Assembly (NCBI RefSeq): GCF_004804275.1
Contig: NZ_STGI01000005.1
Span: 62,001 to 126,000 of the forward strand
DNA from: Herbaspirillum sp. ST 5-3
GTDB lineage: Bacteria > Pseudomonadota > Gammaproteobacteria > Burkholderiales > Burkholderiaceae_D
Direction: 5' to 3'
Length of the DNA stretch: 64,000 nt
Shown here: in pieces, positions 55,412 to 64,000 of the stretch
Layout of the letters: the number at the start of each line of letters is the position of its first letter
How positions within the stretch are numbered: the first letter of the stretch is position 1
The notes under the pieces: model-generated
The model's input: the letters and a program-made list of their open reading frames with translations, nothing else
Told to the model about the DNA's origin: nothing
Database searches by the model: none
Position numbers and translations under genes: made by a program

Positions 55412-56599
55412 CTACGGGCGGCGATAATAATCACATGCGTCACCATTCGGTGATCCAGTCCCTTCGACGTAGTTTTCTCCCAGCCAGGCCATGACATTTT
55501 TCGCATACTGGATACGTTCTTGCGAATGCGGATCCAGCGGGACTTCATACAGTTTTTCAAAACTGCACACCGCGCCGATGAGCGTCTTTTCCGCTGACAC
55601 TGCCGGCACTACATTGGCGAAGCCCGGATCGAACCCCAGTTCATTACCGAAATGGTTAAAATTAGCGCATTGGCTCGACGAAGGAATCTTCATTTTCGTA
55701 GCCAGATTAATGAGCTTGACCTTCCTGTCCTCCCCCCATTGTGCAATTCCATATCCAGTCCTATCGACGATATCGCCATCCTTGGATGCCTCACCAAGTG
55801 TGCCGGTTTCTTGTTTGATGCCGGAATTCAAGCCACTCTCCAACAAGAGATTTCCGACGACGCCCGCAGCTTGCGCCGATGTGAAATTAAATAGGTGCCG
55901 CAGTTCTTTTACATACGCCACGGCGAGTTGCTGTTTCTGTGCGTCGCTGTTCATGGTCGTTTGTGGATTCCCACTCAGAAACGAATTGCCGTCTCCCGGC
56001 AGGCACGCGGAGTTTATGCTGCCCACTCCTTGCGTCGAATGGGCCGCCGATGTGTCCTGAGTTGTGTTTGCATATTGCGTGGGGGACGTTTGTTTCTGGA
56101 CATCGGTAGTAGTGGTCGTCTGAGGATCCGCAACAAACGAATTGCCTCCTCCCGGACTGCCACCGGGGCAAGTACCACCCGACTTGAATAGAGTTGCGAT
56201 CGTCGGATTCCACCCTGTGCCCGCGTAGTCTGTTTGCGTGACCAGTGCGGTATAGACCTTGCCTTGATAAGACACCACGTCACCGGCTCGATAAGTGCCG
56301 CCTTCGCTCCAGGCCGCACACCCTTCTGTTGATGGCGGCGCTGCAGTGCCGCTGCATTGTCCGCCAGGACGGTAAAGACTCCCGACAGTCGGGTTCCAAC
56401 CCGCTCCCTGATAGGCGGTATGCGAGACAAGTGCCGTATAGGTCTGTCCATTGTAGGTGACAACCTCGCCCGCCTGATATGTGCCACCGTCAGCCCAGGC
56501 GACACACGGTGGCGTTGAAGTGGCGTATGCCGATGCACACGCCAACTGAGCCACTACCAACGCAATGCCCGCCGGGCATATCTCCCTGATCTTATTCAT
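55412..56599 (-). CDS. secreted chitin-binding / phage-tail-lysozyme-like protein (paralogue 1)
   Basis: 395 residues. Sec signal peptide to about Ala26. Two type-3 carbohydrate-binding modules (residues 31-82 and 93-144), each of the pattern W-x-GGTYxAGxVVxYxGxxYTAL ... GWNPT flanked by cysteines. A low-complexity linker contains a damaged copy (about 151-170) of the GDGNSF-xx-PQTT block. The lysozyme-like domain (about 220-395) has catalytic Glu254 in LLLESGLNSG and the TGYGIAQW motif. Predicted to cleave peptidoglycan or chitin-like chains outside the cytoplasm. No hrp box of its own was found; it may be cotranscribed with paralogue 2 upstream. Confidence 0.8.
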   Translation of the reverse strand: MNKIREICPAGIALVVAQLACASAYATSTPPCVAWADGGTYQAGEVVTYNGQTYTALVSHTAYQGAGWNPTVGSLYRPGGQCSGTAAPPSTEGCAAWSEGGTYRAGDVVSYQGKVYTALVTQTDYAGTGWNPTIATLFKSGGTCPGGSPGGGNSFVADPQTTTTTDVQKQTSPTQYANTTQDTSAAHSTQGVGSINSACLPGDGNSFLSGNPQTTMNSDAQKQQLAVAYVKELRHLFNFTSAQAAGVVGNLLLESGLNSGIKQETGTLGEASKDGDIVDRTGYGIAQWGEDRKVKLINLATKMKIPSSSQCANFNHFGNELGFDPGFANVVPAVSAEKTLIGAVCSFEKLYEVPLDPHSQERIQYAKNVMAWLGENYVEGTGSPNGDACDYYRRP

Positions 56600-56634
56600 G
56601 ATGCACCTTCAAAATGCCATCGTTCGCATCACTC

Positions 56635-56666
56635 GTCGCCGGCTATTTGTGCGAATAGCCGGCGAC
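56635..56666 (-). terminator. hairpin between lysozyme paralogues 2 and 1
   Basis: GTCGCCGGCTATT (56635-56647) and AATAGCCGGCGAC (56654-56666) are perfect 13-bp arms, nine bases after the paralogue 2 stop. No T-run, so it may only dampen read-through into paralogue 1. Confidence 0.55.
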
Positions 56667-56674
56667 TTCGAGGC

Positions 56675-58087
56675 TTAGAAAACCACTGCCAATCTGCCGT
56701 TGCAACGCAGGGAGCTGGCATCGTCATAGGTATCAATCTCCGCCGGGTTGCCGCGATGCACATACCCCTCGCCTTTTTTCAGTTTGCTGTACAAATACCC
56801 GGCGGCGGCATTATGCGGCCCGTTAGGACCGCCCATTGCGGAGTTAGGGTTGTTACGATCGTTCGAAAGACGATCCTGGAAGGGGCTCTTGATTCCCCAA
56901 TTTCCGGCCCTGACCTCTGGCGGAGCACCGGCAATGATGTCACCCAGATAGCCGGAATGCTGTCCATCCTCACAGAACATGCGTATATTGGAATTGGCGC
57001 CGTAGATGTAGCTCACGTCGAACCAGGAAGCATGAATTTTCTCCTCGAAAAATGCTTCGCCCTGACTCCATGCGGAGCCGTCGCCTTTCCTGCTCGCGAA
57101 GTTGGGGCCGGTATTCAGGCCGAATGGGATATCGACATAGCCCCCCGCAGCGATCGTAAATATCCCATGCAAAGGCACAGTGGGCTTGACACCCTCTGGC
57201 AAGGCTTGCCCGGCCTGCATAACGATCTCCGTCGTAATCACCTCATTGGTCGTATTGCTGAACCTGACGGTGGTCCAGTTGTTCGCAAAACCATGTGGCG
57301 GCTTCTGATTGCCTGATCCACCGCCAGTATCCACGTACGACTTAGCGACGGTCGAATTAGACGATGTATTCGATCCGTCCGGTTGCGGGCCAGGATAATA
57401 ATCGCACGCGTCACCGCTTGCGGAGCCATGCCCTTCGACATAGCTTTCCCCAAGCCAGCTCATGATGTTTCTCGCCAGCTGGATACGGTTACTGGAATTC
57501 GGATCCTTCGGGATTTGATACAGCTTTTCAAAGCTGCACACCGCACCGATAAGATTCTTTTCGGCATGCACTGCAGGTATCACCTTTGCGAATGTCGGCT
57601 CAAAGATCAGTTCATTACCGAGATGGTTAAAGTTAGCGCATTGGCTCGAGGTCGGAATCTTCAATCCCGCCGCCACTTCAATGAGCTTGAACTTCCTTTC
57701 CATGATCCATTGAGCGACGCCATAGCCCGTCCGGTCGACCGCGTCGCCTTGCTTGACCGCCTCGCCAAGTGAACCAGTGACATTTTTCATTCCGGAATTC
57801 AGACCGCTCTCCCACAGGAGATTTGCGACAACGCCTGCAGCTTGCGTCGAAGTCAAATTAAATATGTGCTGAAACTCTTTTACATAAGCCACGGCGAGTT
57901 GTTGTTTCTGTGCCTCGGTGTTCACGGTCGTTTGAGGGCTCGCACTCAAAAACGAATTGCCGTCTCCGGGCAGACACTGGATCGGTAGCTCCGTGTTCGG
58001 CGTTTGTTGGGCATATGCCGACGTGCACGCCAATTGTGCAACGACCAATGCAATGCCCGTCAGCTGAACTTTCTGAATCCCTTTCAT
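56675..58087 (-). CDS. secreted phage-tail-lysozyme-like protein with novel C-terminal domain (paralogue 2)
   Basis: 470 residues. Sec signal peptide ending near Ala26. Lysozyme-like domain about 40-228, Glu93 in LLWESGLNSG, TGYGVAQW, and the NYVEG-type end with cysteine before YYPGP. A Ser/Asn/Gly linker (229-262) leads to about 205 residues of a different domain (TTVRFSNTTNEVITTEIVMQAG ... ASWFDVSYIYGANSNIRMFCEDG ... DASSLRCNG) that looks beta-rich, vaguely like thaumatin-type sandwiches. A perfect hrp box lies 77 bases upstream. Probably an exported cell-wall-active protein under HrpL-type control. Confidence 0.78.
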   Translation of the reverse strand: MKGIQKVQLTGIALVVAQLACTSAYAQQTPNTELPIQCLPGDGNSFLSASPQTTVNTEAQKQQLAVAYVKEFQHIFNLTSTQAAGVVANLLWESGLNSGMKNVTGSLGEAVKQGDAVDRTGYGVAQWIMERKFKLIEVAAGLKIPTSSQCANFNHLGNELIFEPTFAKVIPAVHAEKNLIGAVCSFEKLYQIPKDPNSSNRIQLARNIMSWLGESYVEGHGSASGDACDYYPGPQPDGSNTSSNSTVAKSYVDTGGGSGNQKPPHGFANNWTTVRFSNTTNEVITTEIVMQAGQALPEGVKPTVPLHGIFTIAAGGYVDIPFGLNTGPNFASRKGDGSAWSQGEAFFEEKIHASWFDVSYIYGANSNIRMFCEDGQHSGYLGDIIAGAPPEVRAGNWGIKSPFQDRLSNDRNNPNSAMGGPNGPHNAAAGYLYSKLKKGEGYVHRGNPAEIDTYDDASSLRCNGRLAVVF

Positions 58088-58163
58088 GGCGTTCCTTCAA
58101 AAATGTCATGTTTCGAATCACTCTCCGCCATCTCGAGATGCCAATCGCTGGCGAGATTGTCGA

Positions 58164-58191
58164 TAAGTGGTATGCCGTCAACCGTGGTTCC
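58164..58191 (-). promoter_or_regulatory. hrp box upstream of lysozyme paralogue 2
   Basis: On the minus strand GGAACC (58191-58186), 15 bases, CCACTTA (58170-58164). This fits the HrpL consensus GGAACC-N15/16-CCACNNA at all fixed positions, 77 bases before the start codon. Confidence 0.75.
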
Positions 58192-58362
58192 GCGAATTTC
58201 TCTCCATCACGCATTGATCCACGCTTCAAGTCCAATGTTAAAGACAGCGATTCCTGTGCAACTCGGCAGGTGTTGATCCAGCGCTTGATATTGGCAGTGA
58301 CCTGATCGTTTTTTTGGACCAGGCTAATTTGGAACAGGGCCGCTTAATAAAGCTGTTTCTGC

Positions 58363-58978
58363 GTTCATGCAGAGCGGTTCTGAGGTTTCGTAATTCAGAC
58401 TTGAATGCGGTCGTAATACTGCCGACAATCCTCGATGAGGACCTCGGTTTCAGACGATTCCTGAACCATTCGATAGCCAGATTTTTGTCGCGAACCTTGC
58501 ACAGGCGGCCGCTTACCGAACCCAACACCTTCCGGTCCAGGAAAAACCCGGATACGACGCGATCCATAGTGCGGATACTGGCGCGATAATCGACGTGGAG
58601 AGTGCTACCCGCGTACTCTTCTGCGGCAGAGTCGGGGGCATACAGCAAGCCGGATCTTGCCACCTGCATGAACGCACCAGCTCGACGTTGAGAGATTTCT
58701 CGCTCAACGCCGTACAGTGTCGTATTTCGTCCAGCCGGTGCACTCACCATTCTTTGCTTGAAATCTCCCCCATCATTTCGACGCCGAGCCCTCGATCTGC
58801 CGGCACCTTCTTGAACCGCCCATCATCGAAGCATTCATACAGCAAGGCCAACTGCGCCATTTCTAGAACAAGACCGAGCTCACTCCATGCTCATGACACA
58901 GCTCCGACATCGGGCACCACCATCCGCTTGTTTCAGGATGTCGATGATCTGGCTTTCTGAGAAACGCGACTACTTCAT
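58363..58978 (-). pseudogene. decayed IS3-family transposase (orfA and orfB remnants)
   Basis: From the would-be ATG at 58978 the minus strand reads MK-stop-SRFSESQIIDILKQADGG, the N-terminus of IS3-type OrfA. After a frameshift come MSELCHEHGVSS and KWRS...MNASMM, also OrfA-like. Further on, EREISQRRAGAFMQVARSG matches the start of OrfB. LIEDCRQYYDR followed in another frame by PHSSLNYETSE matches the C-terminal DDE part. Stops, frameshifts and missing middle sequence show a dead element. It separates lysozyme paralogues 2 and 3. Confidence 0.75.
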
Positions 58979-59027
58979 GTAAAACTTTCTCGTTCTAAAT
59001 TGGAGAAAATCCAACTTTCAACACCGC

Positions 59028-60116
59028 TTACTTTCTGGGAGGAATACCGAACGGGTTCTTCCAGACATGCTGTTGGTGATCGTGGTCCGGTCCGGGGCCT
59101 GGGCCATTCTCCTGTTTAGGCGGAGAGTCCTCGTTGGATGGCCAATTTATCGGACATGGTCCGTACTTCTCAAGCGGGCCCACTTTCCATTTGCAGATCT
59201 TCCCGTCCGGATCAACTGGAATAGGGCCGTGATTCGTTTCAGGCTTCGTTACCTTTATCGGACCTGGGCCGCGAATATTGCTAGGCGATGAGCCCCCGCT
59301 CTTTGATTTATCCTTGCCAGGACCAGGCGATGAGCCCCTGCTCTTTGTTTTATCCTTGCCAGGACCAGGCGATGAGGTCGATATAAATCCCTTGACAGGA
59401 TAATGATCGCACACGTCAGCACTAGGGGTGCCGTACCCTTCGACATAATGTTCCCCAAGCCAGTTCATGATGTTTCTCGCCAGCTCAATACGGTTACTGG
59501 AATTCGGATCCTTCGGGGCTTGATACAGCTTTTCAAAGCTGCACACCGCGCCAACAAGATCGTTTTCGGCATGCACTGCAGATATCACCTTTGCGAATCT
59601 CGGCTCAAAGAGCAGTTCATTACCGAGAAAGTTAAAATTAGCGCATTGGCTCGACGTAGGAATCTTCATTTTCTTAGCCAGGTCAACGAGCTTGGCTTTT
59701 CTATCCTTAATCCATTGTGCGACGCCGTAGCCAGTACCATCGGCTGCGCCGTCATTCAACTGCTCCTCGCCAAGTGAGCCATTACCTTTCATTCCTGAAT
59801 TTAAGCCGCTCTCCCACAGGAGATTCGCGACAATGCCCGCGGCCTGCATCGGTGTGAAGCCAAATAGGTACTGCAGTTCTTTTACATAAGCCACGGCGAG
59901 TTGTTGCTTCTGTGCCTCCGTGTTCACGGTCGTTTGAGGGCTCGCACTCAAAAACGAATTGCCGTCTCCCGGCAGACACTGTGGGTGCTCAAACACCATC
60001 CTTGCGGTCATCCCCTCTTCCTGGGTCGACGACGTCGCAGCATATGCGGTTGTGCACGCGAATTGAGCCACTGCCAAAGCAATGGCCGTCAGATGAATCT
60101 TCTTAATTCCTTTCAT
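59028..60116 (-). CDS. secreted phage-tail-lysozyme-like protein with charged repeat tail (paralogue 3)
   Basis: 362 residues. Sec signal peptide ending near Ala26 (KGIKKIHLTAIALAVAQFACTTAYA). Lysozyme-like domain about 48-236, Glu102 in LLWESGLNSG, TGYGVAQW. The tail is Pro/Gly/Lys-rich, with two copies of a 14-residue unit GPGKDK(T/S)KS(R/G)GSSP. It then has a short Cys-bearing segment (DGKICKWKVGPLEKYGPCPINWPS) and a His-rich end. The first 230 residues are close to paralogue 2; the tail is unrelated. A perfect hrp box lies 77 bases upstream, exactly as in paralogue 2. Confidence 0.78.
   Translation of the reverse strand: MKGIKKIHLTAIALAVAQFACTTAYAATSSTQEEGMTARMVFEHPQCLPGDGNSFLSASPQTTVNTEAQKQQLAVAYVKELQYLFGFTPMQAAGIVANLLWESGLNSGMKGNGSLGEEQLNDGAADGTGYGVAQWIKDRKAKLVDLAKKMKIPTSSQCANFNFLGNELLFEPRFAKVISAVHAENDLVGAVCSFEKLYQAPKDPNSSNRIELARNIMNWLGEHYVEGYGTPSADVCDHYPVKGFISTSSPGPGKDKTKSRGSSPGPGKDKSKSGGSSPSNIRGPGPIKVTKPETNHGPIPVDPDGKICKWKVGPLEKYGPCPINWPSNEDSPPKQENGPGPGPDHDHQQHVWKNPFGIPPRK
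59287..59370 (-). repeat. two 42-bp direct repeats inside lysozyme paralogue 3
   Basis: Units 59287-59328 and 59329-59370 differ at a few bases and encode the 14-residue GPGKDK-type motif in frame. A third partial unit starts at 59371. Copy number could vary by slippage. Confidence 0.85.
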
Positions 60117-60192
60117 GGCGTTCCTTCAAAAGTGTCATTTTTCGAATCACTCTGCGCCACCTCCTGGTGCCAATCGCTGGCGAGATCGTCGA

Positions 60193-60220
60193 TAAGTGGT
60201 TTGCCGTTAACCGCGGTTCC
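60193..60220 (-). promoter_or_regulatory. hrp box upstream of lysozyme paralogue 3
   Basis: On the minus strand GGAACC (60220-60215), 15 bases, CCACTTA (60199-60193), 77 bases before the ATG. The surrounding 100 bases closely resemble those upstream of paralogue 2, so gene and promoter were duplicated together. Confidence 0.75.
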
Positions 60221-60331
60221 GGGAATTTCTCTCCATCACGCGCTACTCCACGCTTCCGGCACTTCCCAACGTCAAACGAAGGCGATTCTTGCGTGGTTCG
60301 ACAGGTGTTGACCAGGCACGCGATAAAGACA

Positions 60332-60360
60332 GGAACCGAAGGAACAGACGAAACCACTCA
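60332..60360 (+). promoter_or_regulatory. hrp box pointing to the basic glycine-rich protein gene
   Basis: GGAACC (60332-60337), 16 bases, CCACTCA (60354-60360): a perfect HrpL-type hrp box on the plus strand, 136 bases before ATG 60496. It diverges from the box of paralogue 3, 112 bases away. Confidence 0.75.
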
Positions 60361-60495
60361 ACAACGAGCAAAGATGAACAGTGCATGAATGGCGATCAGG
60401 TGAGCCCGGTACGGACGTCGTGAGAATGACCGACGTCTTTCCGGCTTCAATAGAACGCATGGGAACGAATAGTTTGTTTTATACGAGGGGAACAA

Positions 60496-61363: not shown

Positions 61364-61567
61364 ACGCGCATGACGGCGAATATGGCACCGGCCAACCGCC
61401 AGGGCGAGAAACCGTGGGCCACACTGGCGAACATAGTGAGGGCGCGGTCTGAGGGCGTGACATTCCACACAATCGACATCAGCAAGAATTCATGAAAATG
61501 GGTGACGTCGTTCAGATGGCAAAAAAGATGCTGGGAACGAATAGCCTTTTTTATACGGAGAGTACAA

Positions 61568-63599: not shown

Positions 63600-64000
63600 T
63601 CATTTTTTTGCCGCCTCCAGCGCCTTTACCCCGGGCGATTTACCCGCCGCAGCTTGTTTCGCCCCTCCTCCGCTCACCAGATTCTTCGCACCTCTCCCCG
63701 CTGCTCTGACTGCGCTCACAGCGCCGCCGCCAACTTTTTGCGCTGCCCCGACAGCGGCACCACCTGCGCCTTGTGACATGCCGGGCATCGGCATGCCACC
63801 AATAATATCGGCGGCCAGTTGACCCGCCTTGGAGGTAAGAATCATCAGTGCGATCGTGGTCGCCAGGATCTGTCCACAAACTGTCATGATGTGCGCGAAG
63901 TCGCCACCCGTATTTACGTCTTTCAAAAATTCGGCCATGATCAAAGCGGCCATCCAACAAATGATCGCAAGAACGACGCTTGCAAAACTCCACTTCAGGA
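63600..64000 (-). CDS. C-terminal part of a TrbL/VirB6-like membrane protein
   Basis: The frame enters from the right edge; about 132 C-terminal residues are visible. Two membrane helices (WSFASVVLAIICWMAALIMAEFL and IMTVCGQILATTIALMILTS) are followed by KAGQLAADIIGGMPMPG and an Ala/Gly/Lys-rich tail (GGAAVGAAQKVGGGAVSAVRAAGRGAKNL). This layout is typical of the polytopic channel component of type IV secretion or conjugation systems. The rest of such a cluster would lie beyond the window, so the call is tentative. Confidence 0.45.
   Translation of the reverse strand, partial: LKWSFASVVLAIICWMAALIMAEFLKDVNTGGDFAHIMTVCGQILATTIALMILTSKAGQLAADIIGGMPMPGMSQGAGGAAVGAAQKVGGGAVSAVRAAGRGAKNLVSGGGAKQAAAGKSPGVKALEAAKK

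Follow-up and report, generated by a model that had tools for sequence, protein, structure and literature searches.

Probable wall-cutting enzymes linked to specialised secretion

Several specialised secretion systems are tied to an enzyme that cuts the cell wall. HpaH and Hpa2 of Xanthomonas, EtgA, IagB and VirB1 are such enzymes, and they are of the SLT type (PF01464). HrpH and HopP1 of Pseudomonas syringae are box-controlled wall enzymes, and HopP1 joins a harpin-like part to the enzyme. Here, we describe three tandem genes of the soil bacterium Herbaspirillum sp. ST 5-3, located at positions 55412, 56675 and 59028 of a 64-kb stretch of DNA (the window; contig NZ_STGI01000005.1, 62,001 to 126,000), that encode probable wall enzymes of another family, the phage-tail lysozymes (PF18013, Phage_lysozyme2). 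A sequence-only reading of the window had pointed out these paralogues and connected them with HrpL-type promoter boxes and group I type III secretion systems (T3SS).

According to excerpts of PMC6123991, Hpa2 is called a lytic transglycosylase, with the presumed task of enlarging the meshes of the periplasm for the T3SS, and HpaH has a predicted Sec signal according to an excerpt of PMC5483457. The title of a reference in PMC6123991 describes HrpH/HopP1-type enzymes as co-regulated with the T3SS and contributing to translocation. The proteins studied here differ from the HpaH/Hpa2 type by their PF18013 domain, their three tandem copies with added modules and their location outside the T3SS cluster. 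From HrpH and HopP1 they differ by a Sec-type N-terminus, the lack of a harpin part and the catalytic family; in joining a harpin-like part to a wall enzyme, HopP1 resembles PF18013 fusions in Paraburkholderia.

Our favoured reading, which we hold tentatively and at just short of an even chance, is that the three proteins are exported PF18013 muramidases in the regulon of an extracytoplasmic function (ECF) sigma factor with HrpL-type boxes, a regulon that would also include effector-like genes and, probably, a T3SS, and that they cut chiefly the cell's own peptidoglycan to aid delivery.

The three paralogues belong to the phage-tail lysozyme family

All three proteins belong to PF18013, with scores of 67.5, 51.7 and 66.7 bits against a Pfam curated cut-off of 28.2. 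For the SLT domain (PF01464) no match was found in any of them, even at E-values up to 1. The open reading frames (ORFs), the shared Sec-type N-terminus, the shared core and the differing extra modules are present as the sequence-only reading had described. The cores, about 195 residues long, are 77% (56675) and 66% (55412) identical to that of the 59028 protein, and they are under purifying selection with a pairwise codon dN/dS of 0.28-0.37 by a simple count. In each protein a hydrophobic N-terminal segment is followed by AYA; the Sec-type label was given by inspection and hydropathy, not by a signal-peptide program. None of the three has the Gly/Ser-rich N-terminus without signal peptide that characterises harpin enzymes.

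A profile of five PF18013 domains matches the lysozyme domain of the phi29 tail lysozyme gp13 (PDB 3csr, E 0.00041; also 3csq, "Morphogenesis protein 1"), a phage protein with another partner domain. The conserved Glu and the TGYGxAQW-type motif noted earlier do align to it, the latter as GxGxxQW. We take the aligned Glu to be the catalytic residue of gp13, and the candidate catalytic Glu of the 59028 protein is residue 102. The three proteins are probably muramidases.

The extra modules differ between the copies. The 55412 protein has two chitin-binding CBM5/12 modules (CBM_5_12 in Pfam, E 1.8e-23). For the C-terminal module of about 215 residues in the 56675 protein no match was found in Pfam or among plasmids. 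This module recurs, 59% identical, in a 356-residue protein of Noviherbaspirillum aridicola (G081; L158:1048-2118) that is devoid of PF18013; this relative has no Pfam match and no PDB match better than E 0.79.

Promoter boxes, sigma factor and T3SS

Within the window, three exact matches to the box were found when spacers of 14-17 nt, a range of our choice, were allowed, compared with 0.08 expected, and none of 100 shuffles reaches three. The two perfect boxes that had been reported at the same distance from their genes are indeed there, Table 1, but as copies of one duplicated promoter: the DNA around them is 85.7% identical over 217 nt. They are therefore not independent, and the equal distance reflects inheritance. 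The 13 box bases are identical between the two copies, and three of the 15 spacer bases have changed.

A GGAACC-N15/16-CCACNNA promoter is present for 56675 and 59028, while the 55412 gene lacks one. This gene starts 75 nt behind the 56675 stop and may be read from the 56675 box, despite a hairpin inside the gap. According to an excerpt of PMC3487950, the published Herbaspirillum HrpL consensus is GGAACC-N15-CCACTCAAT. A precedent for a protein with a signal peptide in an HrpL regulon is AprI of P. syringae, as given in part of PMC4149516.

Genome-wide, the broad box pattern has 22 matches, compared with 6 when it is reversed; judged by what lies downstream, many of the 22 appear to be chance matches. 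The tight form GGAACY-N15/16-CCACTYA, chosen after viewing these matches, has 10 versus 3. Five of the 10 lie in the interval C38:120-141 kb, on the contig that holds the window. They precede two of the lysozyme genes, ORF 60496, a 300-residue effector-like ORF and a lipoprotein-like ORF that comes before VirB8.

The genome contains a T3SS cluster within C34:472-522 kb, with SctC, SctV, SctN, SctW, SctB, two LcrH-type chaperones and an ECF sigma gene; a further protein of the cluster gives a weak translocon match. One-mismatch boxes number 6 in this 50-kb region and 2 in the reversed sequence. The genome has 11 SLT matches, all of them outside C34:472-522 kb and C38:117-141 kb. We infer that the ECF sigma factor reads the boxes of the lysozyme genes.

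The genome search for hrpL and hrc genes proposed in the sequence-only reading thus recovers T3SS genes and an ECF sigma factor in their cluster, and the box is enriched; the sigma factor is no more than a candidate for HrpL. Its descent from HrpL was considered and could not be established: among the 25 models listed of 83 none names it HrpL, and in the three plasmid relatives examined no T3SS gene was seen beside the sigma gene. A relative of the sigma factor (38% identical) is found in Eleftheria terrae beside a type VI secretion cluster (L186:11905-12492). The group I label finds no support in the LcrH-type chaperones, SctB and the weak translocon match. The ten plasmid relatives listed for SctV come from Photobacterium, Rhizobium, Mesorhizobium and Aeromonas and are 54-57% identical; since the collection holds plasmids only, they are an indication, not proof, against group I. 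In sum, the observation made from the sequence is confirmed and its interpretation is partly supported.

PF18013 relatives are repeatedly linked to T3SS

The PF18013 family is wider than first thought. An earlier scan of genome contigs with the three window cores only gave 77 pattern matches, none of them a relative. With the window cores and the domain of Paraburkholderia and G081 as query, 79 PF18013 loci were found, and the encoded proteins were examined for 49 of these. Those of L078-L093 (Paraburkholderia, Burkholderia, Caballeronia, Rhizobacter) have Gly/Ser-rich N-termini without a strongly hydrophobic segment, and many of the remaining loci resemble phage tape-measure proteins by eye. 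In the 19 relatives scanned, the N-terminal G+S+A+N+Q fraction is 0.44-0.69 and the hydropathy is lower than in the window proteins. The proteins of L063:5500-6489 and L078-L093 combine harpin-like N-termini with PF18013, and most are encoded in or near Burkholderiales T3SS clusters, often behind a motif like the plant-inducible promoter (PIP) box.

Of the 79 loci, 14 have T3SS-type genes at a distance of no more than 8 kb, L087 counting by an AraC-type regulator only. For a search with SctV, 22 loci were picked (L078-L094, L096 and four Sphingomonas loci preselected for nearby T3SS genes) and 21 genomes searched, with L080 excluded. All 21 have a SctV match at 1e-100, a threshold that admits flagellar FlhA, and 16 are above the T3SS cut-off. 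In 13 of the 21 picked loci (L079, L081-L083, L087-L091, L105, L111, L118, L141) the domain and the SctV match are 10.3-27.7 kb apart on one contig. In P. largidicola the PF18013 gene stands beside genes for an SLT-type transglycosylase and HrpB1, and further on follow the T3SS genes sctC to sctU.

The Sphingomonas loci L105, L111, L118 and L141 encode LysM-PF18013 proteins about 10-11 kb from the SctV match. LysM was recognised by Pfam in L105, which also has NlpC/P60 (Pfam), and by eye in the other three. All four SctV matches are below the cut-off, but L105 has an SctJ that exceeds it and an ATPase whose best match is SctN, below the SctN cut-off.

A PIP-like motif is present within 350 nt upstream in 10 of the 24 genes scanned, while shuffles of seven upstream regions give 1-2.6% per gene. 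The positive genes are not all independent: L063, L065, L080 and L082 are near relatives, as are L084 and L086. L085 was scanned from a probably too early start codon, and its lack of a motif is unsafe. The relatives share the domain with the window proteins and are T3SS-linked in most cases. Their N-terminal parts differ from those of the window proteins, the harpin-like forms contain few or no Cys, and such boxes as were found are PIP-like, not hrp-type.

A tree of 86 rows groups the three window paralogues with 100/100 support; their stem is long (1.5), and they branch within the harpin-like fusions. Support is 94/94 for the 22-row harpin-like set (not starred) and 100/99 for a 36-row set (starred) that also contains other proteins. 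The Sphingomonas proteins fall elsewhere in this tree, rooted at the midpoint only, and therefore the domain appears to have been recruited at least twice. Among viral contigs 8 pattern matches were found, none of them a relative by tblastn, and among phage records only two records of one Caulobacter phage match, with 33.7% identity over half of the core. A search of open-licence PMC found no paper joining "phage tail lysozyme" with "type III secretion", and no title mentioning T3SS among those for "PF18013", which is weak evidence of absence.

These results suggest that a wall-cutting enzyme of phages was adopted by bacteria as an aid to protein injection. The T3SS-linked wall enzymes known so far are SLT-type transglycosylases, and here a second, phage-type family occurs in T3SS clusters. 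A wider proposal would be that PF18013 muramidases were acquired from phage tails on at least two occasions and serve bacteria as general T3SS wall-openers by three routes: fused to a harpin and sent via the T3SS, anchored by LysM, or exported by Sec. The window's copies would have gained chitin-binding parts with which to penetrate a chitin-walled target before injection, and would share their ECF sigma box with effector-like genes. We consider this proposal rather unlikely. The recurrence of a second family in T3SS clusters, with three N-terminal designs and two unrelated promoter codes, would in itself mean that wall opening has been recruited repeatedly, and the domain would be a marker for such enzymes.

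Own wall or outside target

According to the favoured reading, the ECF sigma factor would read the hrp-type boxes of 56675 and 59028, and Sec export would take the three enzymes out of the cytoplasm. The conserved Glu would most likely cut beta-1,4 wall glycan, mainly in the peptidoglycan of the producing cell itself. The opened wall would let the secretion machine be built or deliver, and the accessory modules may direct the three copies to different glycans.

Several results weigh against it. The lysozyme genes and the T3SS are on different contigs (C38 and C34), and the T3SS cluster contains only near-matches to the box, none exact. When one mismatch is allowed, the window shows no excess, 3 matches versus 4 in the reversed control, and therefore only exact matches are informative. 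Linkage to SctV within 28 kb was not found in 8 of the 21 picked loci (L078, L084, L085, L086, L092, L093, L094, L096). For L094 the SctV match on the shared contig is 486 kb away and below cut-off; L092 has T3SS-type genes within 8 kb all the same, and T3SS linkage was found in none of the three Rhizobacter loci. Among 15 genomes of the genus, SctV is above cut-off in six and PF18013 present in two, the window genome and G081 (match at NZ_BPMK01000008.1 coordinates), the latter having no SctV above cut-off. Five of the six genomes with SctV are thus without PF18013, which speaks against an essential role. One of these five, G058, has an SctV that is 71% identical, but in the 34 kb examined up to the contig end neither a sigma relative nor a lysozyme nor a tight box was found, the box pattern giving a single loose match. 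Finally, a target outside the cell accounts better than the own wall for the two chitin-binding modules and for the different equipment of the three copies.

Such a target is the subject of a doubtful but serious alternative: the enzymes may leave the cell by Sec and then type II secretion and cut fungal or arthropod chitin or chitin-glucan, or the peptidoglycan of rivals, thereby clearing the way for injection by the T3SS or a type IV secretion system (T4SS). The CBM5/12 modules, the 56675 module and the 59028 tail would be binding parts for different targets. The genome encodes GspD above cut-off, four Cys are invariant across the three Sec-type cores, compared with 0-4 in the whole protein of the 19 relatives, and the harpin-like fusions among the relatives resemble T3SS substrates by look. 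Two of the three copies, however, are without a recognised chitin-binding module, such modules may also grip the GlcNAc of peptidoglycan, and both secretion and expression are predictions from sequence. No PF18013 enzyme is known to cut chitin. Because of the five genomes and the chitin-binding modules, the own-wall reading is weakened and hence held only tentatively beside this one. The chitin-binding version makes the passage of an injection system through a fungal or arthropod wall directly testable.

The proteins could also be ordinary secreted autolysins or domesticated phage genes, with boxes that are chance or inherited passengers. The single duplication behind the minus-strand boxes, the missing one-mismatch excess, the broad-pattern matches at seemingly non-secretion sites and the mutual similarity of ECF -35 boxes would all fit. 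We nevertheless find this very unlikely, given the number of exact boxes, the box bases kept while the spacer changed, the repeated T3SS linkage of PF18013 and the lack of recognised phage genes among the examined neighbours. A prophage origin as the complete answer was rejected: PHROGs tail-protein matches (best 3.5e-8) exist for two of the three proteins and not for 56675.

The neighbouring T4SS

A T4SS lies to the right of the lysozyme genes on the same contig, inside the box-rich stretch (L054:752-13282, i.e. G000:C38:126752-139282). Pfam identifies VirB2, VirB3 and VirB4 on one strand and VirB8, VirB9 (CagX), a VirB11-type ATPase (T2SSE) and VirD4 on the other. The nearest confirmed gene, VirB4, is about 4.6 kb from the lysozyme genes, and a VirB6-like ORF, by look, reaches back to about window position 63600. 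The C-terminus of the VirD4 ORF (1310 residues) gives matches to GNAT acetyltransferase profiles as well.

The three enzymes might therefore serve this T4SS as VirB1 substitutes instead of the T3SS, and its region has no SLT match. One of the boxes lies 318 nt before the lipoprotein-like ORF (141 residues) ahead of VirB8. On the other hand, the lysozyme genes form separate transcription units with effector-like genes in between, and the links seen for relatives of the domain are to T3SS, T4SS linkage not having been searched for among them. We give this possibility little credence.

Other features of the locus

The G+C content per kb is mostly lower at 55-64 kb (0.52-0.58) than at 46-55 kb (0.57-0.63), and the lower stretch comprises the lysozyme genes, two effector-like ORFs and the T4SS. 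Coordinates are listed in Table 1.

Table 1. Features of the locus, in window positions unless a contig is named.
Feature	Position	Strand	Remarks
Paralogue 1 (P0003, 395 aa)	55412..56599	minus	Sec-type N-terminus, two CBM5/12, PF18013 (1.8e-18); no own box
Hairpin, 12 bp, perfect (TCGCCGGCTATT / AATAGCCGGCGA)	56636..56665	minus	separates paralogues 2 and 1; not followed by a T run
Paralogue 2 (P0002, 470 aa)	56675..58087	minus	Sec-type N-terminus, PF18013 (1.4e-13), C-terminal module of ~215 aa
Hrp-type box GGAACC-N15-CCACTTA	58164..58191	minus	76 nt before ATG of 56675-58087; duplicated promoter in common with 60193-60220
Paralogue 3 (P0001, 362 aa)	59028..60116	minus	Sec-type N-terminus, PF18013 (3.2e-18), Pro/Lys-rich low-complexity tail
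Hrp-type box GGAACC-N15-CCACTTA	60193..60220	minus	76 nt before ATG of 59028-60116
Hrp-type box GGAACC-N16-CCACTCA	60332..60360	plus	opposite orientation, facing effector-like ORF 60496
Gly-rich ORF, 156 aa	60496..60966	plus	effector-/harpin-like by look only; 135 nt behind plus-strand box; weak collagen match below cut-off
ORF, 412 aa	61568..62806	plus	N-terminus rich in Ser/Pro; effector-like in appearance only; leader similar to that of 60496
ECF sigma gene	C34:491443-492105		inside T3SS cluster

The two effector-like ORFs have a common leader (GGGAACGAATAG ... TTTATAC ... ACAAATG; window 60460-60495 and 61535-61567) that is distinct from the hrp-type box. Between paralogues 2 and 3, window 58238-58980 has no recognised gene and no Pfam match; it resembles an insertion-sequence remnant. 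At its right end, a segment of about 185 nt has 70-71% matches in plasmids of Massilia, Janthinobacterium and Klebsiella.

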